64,000 nt of DNA from Streptomyces sp. WP-1 (lineage in GTDB: Bacteria; Actinomycetota; Actinomycetes; Streptomycetales; Streptomycetaceae): contig NZ_CP123923.1 in assembly GCF_030450125.1 (NCBI RefSeq), positions 2,604,001 through 2,668,000 on the forward strand, read 5' to 3'. The position numbers and the translations under genes are program-made. The notes under the pieces are model-generated. The model saw only the letters and a list, made by a program, of their open reading frames with translations, did not search any database and was not told where the DNA came from. This document shows, piece by piece, positions 51,993 through 55,887 of this stretch; the stretch's first letter is position 1; each line of letters opens with the position of its first letter.

Positions 51993-53114
51993 TCACGCCG
52001 CCGTCGTCGCCCGGGTGGTGGAGGCGATCGTGGCCGAGCCGACGACGCGCGTGCCGTCGTAGAGCACGATCGCCTGGCCGGGGGCGACGCCGCGGACCGG
52101 TTCGGTGAAGCTGACGCGCAGTTCGCCGTCGACCGGCTCGGCCCGTACCTCGGTCTCGCCGCCGTGGGCGCGCAGCTGGGCGGTGTAGGTGCCGGGTGCG
52201 GTGGGGGCGGTGCCGCACCAGCGGGGCTTGATCGCGGTGAGGGCGGTGACGTCCAGGGCGGCGGCCGGGCCGACCGTGACGGTGTTGTCCACCGGGGAGA
52301 TGTCGAGGACGTAGCGCGGCTTGCCGTCGGGGGCCGGGGTGCCGATGCGCAGGCCCTTGCGCTGGCCGATCGTGAAGCCGTACGCCCCCTCGTGCGTGCC
52401 CAGGCGGGTGCCGGACTCGTCCACGATGTCGCCCTCGGCCTTGCCGAGCCGCCGGGCGAGGAAGCCCTGGGTGTCGCCGTCGGCGATGAAGCAGATGTCG
52501 TGCGAGTCGGGCTTCTTGGCCACCGCGAGGCCCCGGCGCTCGGCCTCGGCGCGGATCTCCTCCTTGGTGGTGACCGTGTCGCCGAGCGGGAACATCGCGT
52601 GCGCGAGCTGCTTCTCGTCCAGGACGCCGAGCACGTACGACTGGTCCTTGGCCATGTCGGAGGCGCGGTGCAGCTCGCGGGAGCCGTCGGCGCGGACGAT
52701 CACCTGGGCGTAGTGGCCGGTGCAGACGGCGTCGAAGCCGAGGGCGAGCGCCTTGTCCAGGAGCGCGGCGAACTTGATCTTCTCGTTGCAGCGCAGGCAG
52801 GGGTTGGGGGTGCGCCCGGCCTCGTACTCGGCGATGAAGTCCTCGACGACGTCCTCGCGGAAGCGGTCGGCGAGGTCCCACACGTAGAAGGGGATGCCGA
52901 TGACGTCGGCGGCGCGGCGGGCGTCGCGCGAGTCCTCGATGGTGCAGCAGCCCCGCGCGCCGGTGCGGAAGGACTGGGGGTTGGCGGAGAGCGCGAGATG
53001 GACGCCGGTGACGTCATGGCCGGCTTCCGCGGCGCGCGCGGCGGCGACGGCGGAGTCCACCCCGCCGGACATGGCGGCGAGGACGCGGAGGGGGCGCTGC
53101 GGGGTCTCAGTCAT
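51993..53114 (-). CDS. mnmA: tRNA-specific 2-thiouridylase
   Basis: 373 residues. It thiolates U34 of Lys, Glu and Gln tRNAs using sulfur relayed from a cysteine desulfurase and ATP. PP-loop '[14 protein letters not shown]' at residue ~13, catalytic Cys in '[12 protein letters not shown]' and second Cys in '[15 protein letters not shown]'; C-terminal beta barrels follow. It lies 297 bases downstream of the cysteine desulfurase gene on the same strand; the interval holds a TPP aptamer on the opposite strand. Confidence 0.96.
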
Positions 53115-53197
53115 AACCCTTCCAGGGTACGGGCCCCGGAAAAATCATGGGCCGGGCTCTTTATGTCTGGTATGAGCGGGATTACTCTGTTTACAGG

Positions 53198-53378
53198 CCT
53201 ACGAGACGAGTGAGGGAGTCCAAGCGGAGTAGCCGACGTCAGCGTGAGACCGCGAGGGATCCGCTGGTGCCGACGTCGACGCTCGGGCTGAGAGGCCGGA
53301 AGGTCGCAGGACGGACCGGAAGGCGACCTCCAGACACCTGATCCGGACCATGCCGGCGAAGGGAACCCGCCTCGTAGG
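53198..53378 (+). promoter_or_regulatory. TPP riboswitch aptamer (THI element), apparently without a target gene
   Basis: All conserved parts of the class are present in order on the plus strand: GGGAGTCC (53214-53221), GGGCTGAGAGG (53285-53295), CACCTGATCCGG (53335-53346), CATGCCGGCG and AAGGGAA (53349-53365). P1 is a perfect 8-bp pairing of CCTACGAG (53198-53205) with CTCGTAGG (53371-53378). P3 is long and self-consistent: AGCG/CGCT at the base, GACGTC (53235) with GACGTC (53272), then AGCG/CGCT. P2 pairs GGAG with CTCC. Downstream on this strand there is only the antisense of the cysteine desulfurase gene; the next plus-strand gene begins at 55261. Confidence 0.88.
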
Positions 53379-53411
53379 TCGTTTTCTGTGCCCTTTTCCC
53401 GGCCGCCGGGT

Positions 53412-54581
53412 TCAGGTGAGGCCGGCCGCGCGGGCGCGTTCCACGGCGGGGCCGATGGCTTTGGCGACGGCGTCCACGTCCGCCCGGGTGGAGGTGTGGC
53501 CGAGGGAGAAGCGCAGGGTGCCGCGGGCCAGGTCGGGGTCGACACCGGCGGCGAGCAGGACGTGGCTGGGCTGGGCGACGCCCGCGGTACAGGCGGAGCC
53601 GGTGGAGCACTCGATGCCCTGGGCGTCCAGCAGGAGCAGCAGGGAGTCGCCCTCGCAGCCGGGGAAGGTGAAGTGCGCGCTGGCGGGCAGCCGGCCGCCG
53701 GGGGCGGGGTCGCCGCCGAGGATCGCGTCCGGTACGGCGGCCAGCACGGCGTCGGTCAACCGGTCGCGCAGGGCGCCCACTTCACGCTCGAACTCGCCGC
53801 GCCGCCCGGTCGCGACGCGGCCGGCGACGGCGAAGGAGGCGATGGCCGGGACGTCGAGGGTGCCGGAGCGCACATGGCGTTCCTGGCCGCCGCCGTGCAG
53901 GACGGGCACGGGGGTGTGCTCGCGGCCCAGCAGCAGGGCGCCGATGCCGTACGGGCCGCCGATCTTGTGCGCCGAGACGGTCATCGCGGCGAGGCCGCTG
54001 GCACCGAAGTCGACGGGGACCTGACCGAAGGCCTGGACGGCGTCGGCGTGCAGCGGGACGTCGAACTCGGCCGCGACGTCGGCGAGTTCGCGGATCGGCA
54101 TGATGGTGCCGATCTCGTTGTTGGCCCACATCACGGTGGCCAGCGCGACGTCCTCGGGATTGCGGGCGATGGCCTCGCGCAGGGCGCCCGGGTGGACGCG
54201 GCCGTGGGCGTCGACGGGGAGGTACTCCACGGTGGCGCCCTCGTGCTCGCCGAGCCAGTGCACGGCGTCCAGGACGGCGTGGTGCTCGACGGGGCTGGAC
54301 AGGACGCGGGTGCGGGCGGGGTCGGCGGCGCGGCGGGACCAGTACAGGCCCTTCACGGCGAGGTTGTCCGCCTCGGTGCCGCCGGAGGTGAACACGACCT
54401 CGCTGGGCCGTGCGCCGAGCGCGTCCGCGAGCGTCTCGCGTGCTTCCTCGACCGTACGGCGGGCCCGGCGGCCGGAGGCGTGCAGGGAGGAGGCGTTGCC
54501 CGTGATGCTCAGCTGCGCGGTCAGAGCCTCTGCCGCCTCCGGGAGCATGGGGGTGGTCGCGGCGTGGTCGAGGTAAGCCAT
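53412..54581 (-). CDS. Cysteine desulfurase (IscS/NifS-type, class V aminotransferase)
   Basis: 389 residues. Converts cysteine to alanine and enzyme-bound persulfide. '[10 protein letters not shown]' at the start, '[12 protein letters not shown]', '[11 protein letters not shown]', PLP lysine in '[13 protein letters not shown]', and the persulfide Cys loop '[18 protein letters not shown]'. Positioned upstream of mnmA, its likely sulfur acceptor; the same enzyme class also feeds thiamine and Fe-S synthesis. Its 3' end is 34 bases from the end of the opposing TPP aptamer. Confidence 0.95.
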
Positions 54582-55260: not shown

Positions 55261-55887
55261 ATGAGTCACACCCTCGGCGCCCGGCAGGCCCAGAAGCAGA
55301 AGACCCGGCAGGCGTTCCTCGACGCGGCGCTCGCGCTGCTGGAGGAGCAGAGCCTGAGCAGCCTGGGCCTGCGCGAGGTCACCCGGGCCGTCGGTGTCGC
55401 CCCCACCGCCTTCTACCGGCACTTCCGCTCGATCCCCGACCTCGGTGTCGCCCTGGTCGACGAGGCGCTCGGCAGCCTGCACCCGATGGTGCGCGAGGCG
55501 GTGTCCACGACCGGCGACAGTGCGGAACGCATCGCGCGCGCCGTGGAGTTGATCGCCCACTACGTCGCCGCCCACCCCTCGCACGTCCGCTTCATCGCCC
55601 GTGAGCGGCACGGCGGGGTGCAGCCGGTGCGCGAGGCCATCGGCGGCCAACTGGCCCGGTTCGCCGACGAGGTGCGGGCCACCCTCGCCCAGGACCCCGG
55701 GGCGGCGGGCTGGAGCGACGACGACGTGCTGATGCTCGCGCGGCTGTACGTCGACCAGATGCTGATCACCGCCTCCCTGTTCCTGGAGGCGCTGGAGGGT
55801 CCCGCGGACGAGCGGGACCGGGTGGCCCGGCTGGCCACCCGGCAGCTGCGGCTCATCACCATCGGCCGCGACCACTGGCTGGACTGA
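55261..55887 (+). CDS. TetR-family regulator (FabR-like)
   Basis: 208 residues. HTH region 'QKQKTRQAFLDAALALLEEQSLSSLGLREVTRAVGVAPTAFYRHF'-type pattern; the C-terminal helices carry 'HVRFIARERHGG' and 'LARLYVDQMLITASLFLEAL'. The domain resembles the FabR branch that senses acyl groups and represses desaturase or fatty-acid genes, but nothing of that kind is adjacent. The start overlaps the operator palindromes; ATG kept because the family N-terminus begins there. Confidence 0.92.
   Translation: MSHTLGARQAQKQKTRQAFLDAALALLEEQSLSSLGLREVTRAVGVAPTAFYRHFRSIPDLGVALVDEALGSLHPMVREAVSTTGDSAERIARAVELIAHYVAAHPSHVRFIARERHGGVQPVREAIGGQLARFADEVRATLAQDPGAAGWSDDDVLMLARLYVDQMLITASLFLEALEGPADERDRVARLATRQLRLITIGRDHWLD

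Follow-up and report, generated by a model that had tools for sequence, protein, structure and literature searches.

An RNA family built on a TPP aptamer is represented by one copy in the window, i.e. the whole 64,000-nt stretch of Streptomyces sp. WP-1 DNA that was analysed (source genome: a single contig of 7.62 Mb). The aptamer is located on the plus strand at 53196-53380, flanked by two minus-strand genes, mnmA and one encoding a cysteine desulfurase. Computation showed a conserved structure preceded by promoter-like signals, the absence of a common downstream gene among relatives, and repeated loss of the sensor half of the aptamer. With modest confidence, we favour a free-standing RNA of ~185 nt with its own promoter, which would act in trans under the control of TPP; its transcription, its binding of TPP, its effect in trans and the proposed gating are all predicted from sequence. 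To our knowledge, hardly any riboswitch aptamers are known outside messengers. If the favoured reading is true, the family would show how metabolite sensing and RNA effector function join and part in evolution.

A TPP aptamer without a sense gene

Both neighbouring genes are located outside the RNA. The product of mnmA (51993-53114, minus strand) scored 419 bits against NCBIfam MnmA, above the cut-off. The product of the desulfurase gene (53412-54581, minus strand, convergent with the RNA) matched Pfam Aminotran_5 above the cut-off, its top NCBIfam matches being cysteine desulfurases below their own cut-offs. The MnmA and Aminotran_5 scores support the names that the initial annotation had given to these neighbours. 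Its claim of a complete TPP aptamer lacking a sense gene was borne out as well: the pocket blocks are present, and according to the gene calls in the window, no plus-strand gene is found directly behind the aptamer for 1.9 kb, the first accepted one encoding a TetR_N protein at 55261, ~1.9 kb away. The 8-bp P1 (53198-53205 with 53371-53378) is real, and in its full length it joins 53196-53208 to 53368-53380, 12 of the 13 positions being paired and one being A.C. Absent from the initial annotation were the long P3 arm (53218-53288) and the conservation of the RNA far beyond the desulfurase locus.

The same annotation had proposed a covariance search with RF00059. On the plus strand, 53259-53381 was the only match with E<1 at the locus (29.6 bits, E 5.9e-4, 431 bases searched), and this score is below the curated gathering score of 54.3 bits, so that a search of the whole window at the gathering threshold reports nothing. 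No Rfam 15 family reached its threshold at the locus. Among seven members searched with RF00059, five scored 33.8-41.9 bits, and the window copy and L058 were absent at E<=0.01. Three further RF00059 matches (E<=10) in the source genome, with 63.3, 50.1 and 29.6 bits, were read as ordinary leaders, their genes being judged by eye. One of them (L003, position 4116172, plus strand) is by eye a thiC leader and scores only 29.6 bits; in this genome, the Rfam cut-off therefore misses an ordinary-looking TPP leader too. Given the sub-cut-off Rfam score and no thiamine gene seen behind it, the RNA is likely to be missed by routine annotation.

We collected 175 instances of the RNA, representing 160 distinct sequences; this set consists of top-scoring loci and pattern hits, and is thus biased rather than random. 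Eleven matches (L001, L003, L077-L083, L110 and a second, weak L088 match) were removed before counting as canonical TPP riboswitches or weak matches, and L195, cut by a contig end, was excluded from P1 and tree counts. A covariance model, R1, was built from alignment A1 (30 relatives, the window copy among them), and it gave the window copy, one of its own builders, 180.8 bits. Counted members scored 64.9-205 bits, the weakest being L102 with a broken P1. R1 also detects TPP riboswitches: seven loci from class and phylum searches scored 46.6-61.6 bits, all of them matched as TPP by Rfam and five above its cut-off, and two TPP leaders of the source genome scored 22.7 and 31.9 bits. The separation between L102 (64.9 bits) and the best Rfam-confirmed TPP riboswitch (61.6 bits) is narrow, which counts against reading the family as an independent RNA.

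As for the binding pocket, a pattern test found both J3/2 and P4/P5 in 145 of the 160 distinct sequences, and ACCUGAUCCGG of P4/P5 was exact in 131 of these 145. The alignments reproduce the order P1, P2, P3, P4/P5 of the TPP fold, with P3 enlarged. The U-turn base of the P5 loop was C in 120 intact sequences, U in 24 and G in one; in ordinary TPP aptamers it is U, according to the main text of Barrick and Breaker (PMC2258182). Docking of L5 may therefore differ from that of ordinary TPP aptamers. The RNA likely binds TPP. The window copy is a real, complete TPP aptamer, and a likely functional one.

Architecture, covariation and flanking signals

Using the TPP scheme as a template, we drew the structure manually over A1. 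The predicted RNA extends over 53196-53385 (plus strand, ~185-190 nt), on the evidence of the conserved stretch and the R1 score. In alignment A2 (59 sequences), its outer helix P1 covaries, both sides having changed at 5 of 13 positions. P2 (GGG at 53214-53216 with CCC at 53329-53331) is paired in 98.3% of A2 cells. The short P3 of ordinary aptamers is replaced by GUYCR/YGGGC extended as an arm of ~70 nt, which is composed of P3b, a conserved internal loop, P3c and P3d in this order; the helices P3, P3b, P3c and P3d covary. The arm is followed by J3/2 (CUGAGAG), the pyrimidine-side pocket of which, CUGAGA (53288-53293), was present in 145 of the 147 distinct sequences passing the P4/P5 pattern. 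Next come the P3a hairpin (53295-53324), drawn with two helices in A2, and P4/P5 with J4/5, the pyrophosphate-side pocket (53337-53362). Its seven pairs are invariant in A1 and A2 and therefore uninformative on pairing.

In A1, 94.4% of cells were paired and 13 of 52 pairs showed double changes; none of 500 shuffles reached either figure, and slid controls gave 3-6 pairs. In A2, which was fitted to the model, hence leans to the structure, and includes two canonical riboswitches, 94.3% of cells were paired and double changes occurred in 29 of 52 pairs (0 of 500 shuffles; slid controls 8-12). An undrawn pair was also noticed between position 16 in J1/2 and a partner in J4/1, being U-A in 85 and C-G in 59 sequences; no exception occurred among the 144 of 160 that were readable, the pattern itself admitting only U or C against A or G. 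The single-sequence fold was unremarkable (z -1.4), with a structure different from the alignment-based one. Two other descriptions were tried and rejected. A P1 with an unexplained 60-nt insert was abandoned because the alignment showed the arm to be an enlarged P3, and coding was dismissed because the ATG in P5 is not conserved (ATG, ATA and ATT alternate).

RNA lengths ranged from 112 to 228 nt (median 181), and 12-13 of the 13 P1 pairs were formed in 156 of 159 sequences. Comparison of the interval across Streptomyces, again suggested by the initial annotation, confirmed that P1 is kept between flanks that vary among relatives. Arms vary from genus to genus, and L097 (140 nt in total) has a far shorter one, so a single arm-binding partner is not assured.

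Several promoter-like signals precede P1 on the plus strand: the A-tract AAAAATC (53140-53144), a weak -35-like TTTATG (53160-53165) situated 17 nt from the -10 and matched by T-rich columns at -33 to -35, and the -10 box TACTCT (53183-53188), which recurs at a fixed distance in relatives. TANNNT occurred within an eight-position window before P1 in 155 of 160 sequences, the six control windows yielding 2-6 of 160; among the 64 sequences from settings other than the two main loci, 59 had it. Of 159 relatives, 88 have AAAAA between roughly -64 and -43; six comparison windows gave 0-4 each, and a seventh, which overlaps the target, gave 89. Behind P1, a U-rich 3' tail with TGTGCC (53381-53392, plus strand) corresponds to an enrichment of T-runs and YRTGY in relatives: TTT was observed in the first 8 nt behind P1 in 43 of 157 sequences (0-9 in seven later windows), and YRTGY in 96 of 157 (5-24 in six later windows). 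No conserved alignment column was seen further 3' of the tail, and no conserved terminator, antiterminator or other expression platform after P1. In L040, L028, L048, L107 and L103, the TGTGCC/CATGCC-like tail was repeated several times in tandem, suggestive of a duplicated 3' end.

Together, the -10, the A-tract, the covarying P1 and the short tail are the layout of a putative independent RNA gene of ~185 nt; use of these signals would place both ends of the RNA at P1. Neither a promoter nor a terminator of the E. coli type was detected in the window by a generic scan. The weak -35 and the short U-run fit this outcome, which nevertheless counts against an independent gene.

Distribution and genomic settings

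Blastn searches with the intergenic stretch gave long matches (E<1e-6, extending past the shared P4/P5 block, counted by hand) in 68 of 199 Streptomyces genomes, the source genome included. Fifty of the 68 were followed up, of which 30 gave the R1 alignment and 20 were refound by R1. About one third of the sampled Streptomyces thus carry the RNA, which we counted against the independent-RNA reading. Searches with R1 gave at least 64 bits in 46 of 200 genomes of the family, across 8 of 17 sampled genera as counted among the matches listed. Of 147 genomes sampled from the order, 47 matched at E<=1e-8, 41 of them from the same genus and six from another family. Outside the order, one genome of the class sample of 296 exceeded 100 bits (G680, 112 bits), and R1 found no additional genome above 62 bits among the 198 of the phylum sample. 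A pattern scan of named genomes yielded at least 120 stretches; among the matches listed, 79 of 80 analysed were confirmed by R1, belonging to Streptomyces, Kitasatospora and one actinomycete MAG, and the sole miss among the 80 was a deltaproteobacterial MAG contig. Almost all named carriers belong to Streptomyces, S. coeruleorubidus and S. viridochromogenes among them. Embleya contained a 192-nt match (76.5%).

The source genome contained one match at E<=1e-8, as did each of the 41 same-genus carriers of the order sample. In the R1 search of the family, up to three strong copies per genome were detected (G275). These are located on contig 1 at 133983, 193854 and 209939 (L054, L100 and L101), spanning ~76 kb near one end of this 7.8-Mb contig. 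A mobile element was considered and rejected: a tRNA gene was found at only 2 of 36 searched loci (L053 and L058), the two records from the plasmid collection were Embleya (5.7 Mb, linear) and Nonomuraea (a 41-nt match), and the phage collection gave one 41-nt match. The collections searched gave no indication that phages or small plasmids carry the RNA.

The 160 distinct sequences fall into three classes by setting: the desulfurase locus (17 sequences), a KstR-like/aldehyde dehydrogenase locus (79) and 42 further flank clusters (64 in all). The second class comprises loci with a KstR-like, aldehyde dehydrogenase or glycosyltransferase gene anywhere, the KstR-like name reflecting 201 bits against a cut-off of 280. 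Neighbouring genes were called by a GC-by-codon-position rule in place of a gene finder and were read by eye. Most members read at the two main Streptomyces loci have a convergent gene next, so the antisense position is usual there. It is not fixed across settings: in the 42 others, the first called downstream gene was sense in 19, convergent in 22 and uncalled in one. The element is inverted relative to the KstR-like gene in L027, a sense gene intervenes in L031, and an aldehyde dehydrogenase gene starts soon 3' of the element in L051. At the desulfurase locus, an extra plus-strand gene separates mnmA from the element in L007, L008 and L035.

These heuristic calls revealed no downstream gene common to the 42 other settings, and a comparison of all called neighbours gave only eight pairs of related proteins. 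No thiamine gene was seen behind the RNA in the settings examined. From such mixed settings, it follows that neither downstream control in cis nor antisense action on one neighbour explains the whole conservation. The sulfur-sharing antisense model of the initial annotation fares poorly on the same counts, and 143 of the 160 distinct sequences come from loci that lack the desulfurase gene. The RNA tree is weakly supported (stars on 20 of 156 inner branches); the setting labels show 10 changes on it, against a minimum of five. As for single neighbours, the unrelated settings L091, L099 and L120 contained related proteins, by eye SpoIIE/PP2C-type phosphatases in mixed orientation, and in some members from other genera the element was found near genes that by eye are stress-like (CspA, Hsp20, UspA and PspA; L055, L056, L057, L059 and L088).

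Loss of the P4/P5 half and competing explanations

Thirteen of the 160 sequences failed the P4/P5 pattern. L195 is cut by its contig end, P4/P5 is changed but present in L090 and L122, and ten sequences are devoid of it (L092, L093, L103-L109 and L136). L106 and L107, 112 nt long, also lack P3a. J3/2 is altered in most of the ten, and the P2 region is changed in L103, L108 and L109. The 12 complete pattern-failing sequences retain 12-13 of the 13 P1 pairs, and all 13 retain the -10. On a tree of the KstR-like gene (73 loci, nine without P4/P5), the state changes three times, each change being forced by starred branches; as a deletion is hardly regained, these were read as three losses. L136, located at the desulfurase locus and showing a different deletion edge, is probably a fourth, unless the copy moved after its loss. 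Within the loss clades, RNAs are 82-97% identical, and the flank 16-75 nt downstream is 55-71% identical, near the shuffled level. From -220 to -70, conservation roughly equals that of the RNA in 8 of 10 TPP-less pairs, and identity over the 40 nt preceding P1 is only 47-86%; both figures were counted against the independent-RNA reading.

Since sequences that have lost P4/P5 still keep their -10, their P1 and most of their arm, the sensor seems to be a module that can be removed. Read most simply, P1 and the arm would have a TPP-independent role, which the aptamer would regulate where present. Repeated sensor loss could also represent decay. Tentatively, we extend the simplest reading to a stand-alone effector RNA (P1 plus arm) with the aptamer as its removable sensor, which several lineages may have dropped, running the effector unregulated.

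The model of a free-standing RNA assumes transcription from its own housekeeping-type promoter just upstream. According to the model, the transcript would end just past P1, its 5' and 3' ends pairing together, and would carry an intact TPP aptamer with P3 grown into the long arm. Acting in trans, it would bind a partner, either a protein or a second RNA, by way of the arm and/or P1. The two limbs of known TPP structures, P2-P3 and P4-P5, are bridged by the ligand; with such bridging and a long P3 arm, TPP is proposed to clamp the arm against P4/P5, fixing its direction and thereby gating its presentation to the partner. More speculatively, TPP could be a cofactor of the RNA instead of a signal.

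If TPP controlled readthrough past P1 into the convergent gene (desulfurase or KstR-like) and so silenced it, the convergent orientation at both main loci would be accounted for, and the S-box antisense RNA described in the main text of PMC2258182 would provide a precedent. We regard this as unlikely: the other 42 settings are mixed in orientation, L027 and L031 depart from the convergent arrangement, no conserved terminator or antiterminator candidate follows P1, and P1 is so constantly paired that no switch is visible. An ordinary cis riboswitch for whichever gene follows would suit the 19 of 42 other settings with a sense gene next (e.g. the aldehyde dehydrogenase gene in L051); we think this very unlikely, as no gene is shared among settings, most members read at both main loci have no sense gene next, and a conserved expression platform is missing.

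Alternatively, the element might be a relic or passenger, an old TPP riboswitch severed from its gene, moved about and decaying. The patchy distribution (68/199), the sensor loss in several lineages, the broken copy L102 and the KstR-like site of the source genome, where blastn did not find the element, all speak for this. Against it stand the covariation, the conserved pocket and the fixed-distance -10 with A-tract in dozens of unlike settings, together with TPP-less forms that remain conserved relative to the downstream flank. We therefore consider a relic quite unlikely; for the same reasons, the relic or local inversion offered by the initial annotation is a poor fit. A TPP store, i.e. an abundant RNA merely holding TPP, would explain the intact pocket and the apparently dedicated promoter with its A-tract, and is highly improbable given the single match in each of the 41 same-genus carriers and the persistence of TPP-less versions.

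The RNA can be compared with several known systems. With the TPP aptamer (THI element, RF00059), it shares the order P1-P2-P3-J3/2(UGAGA)-P3a-P4-P5 and the pocket blocks; it differs in the long P3 arm, the longer P1 and the mostly C base of the L5 U-turn. Compared with RF00059 as a cis-acting riboswitch, which is a thiamine-gene leader with an expression platform, neither the gene nor the platform was found here. Trans-acting riboswitch sRNAs are known, such as SreA of Listeria (SAM) and EutX/Rli55 (B12), in which the aptamer is part of an RNA acting elsewhere and governs termination or release of a further part. The present RNA is likewise predicted to work away from its own gene, but unlike SreA and EutX, it seems to end with the aptamer's own P1. 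In Clostridium acetobutylicum, an S-box antisense RNA is convergent with its neighbour gene, as the element often is, and possesses a terminator/antiterminator, as described in the main text of PMC2258182; in contrast, the present family has no conserved terminator/antiterminator and no fixed neighbour. Neither the fixed antisense position nor the ligand-controlled terminator of a riboswitch-controlled antisense RNA was found.

No description of the element was found in the available text of Streptomyces sRNA and transcriptome papers (PMC3765725, PMC8079986, PMC2422843, PMC8388888 and PMC11678152), nor anything describing the RNA in the literature as represented by titles and the start of abstracts, subscription papers and preprints aside. 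Barrick and Breaker (2007) noted a few seemingly functional aptamers that do not precede cognate genes, for which they suggested trans-acting antisense RNAs or recent orphaning; their main text (PMC2258182) does not contain the word Streptomyces. Compared with those orphans, the RNAs form a conserved family, too widespread for recent orphaning. A family of TPP-sensor RNAs would be a strong case of the Barrick and Breaker idea, in a new form. Natural versions with and without the sensor represent ready-made experimental pairs. In one of the versions without P4/P5 (L109:1402-1572), the P3a hairpin is enlarged by GGAAGATC-like repeats.
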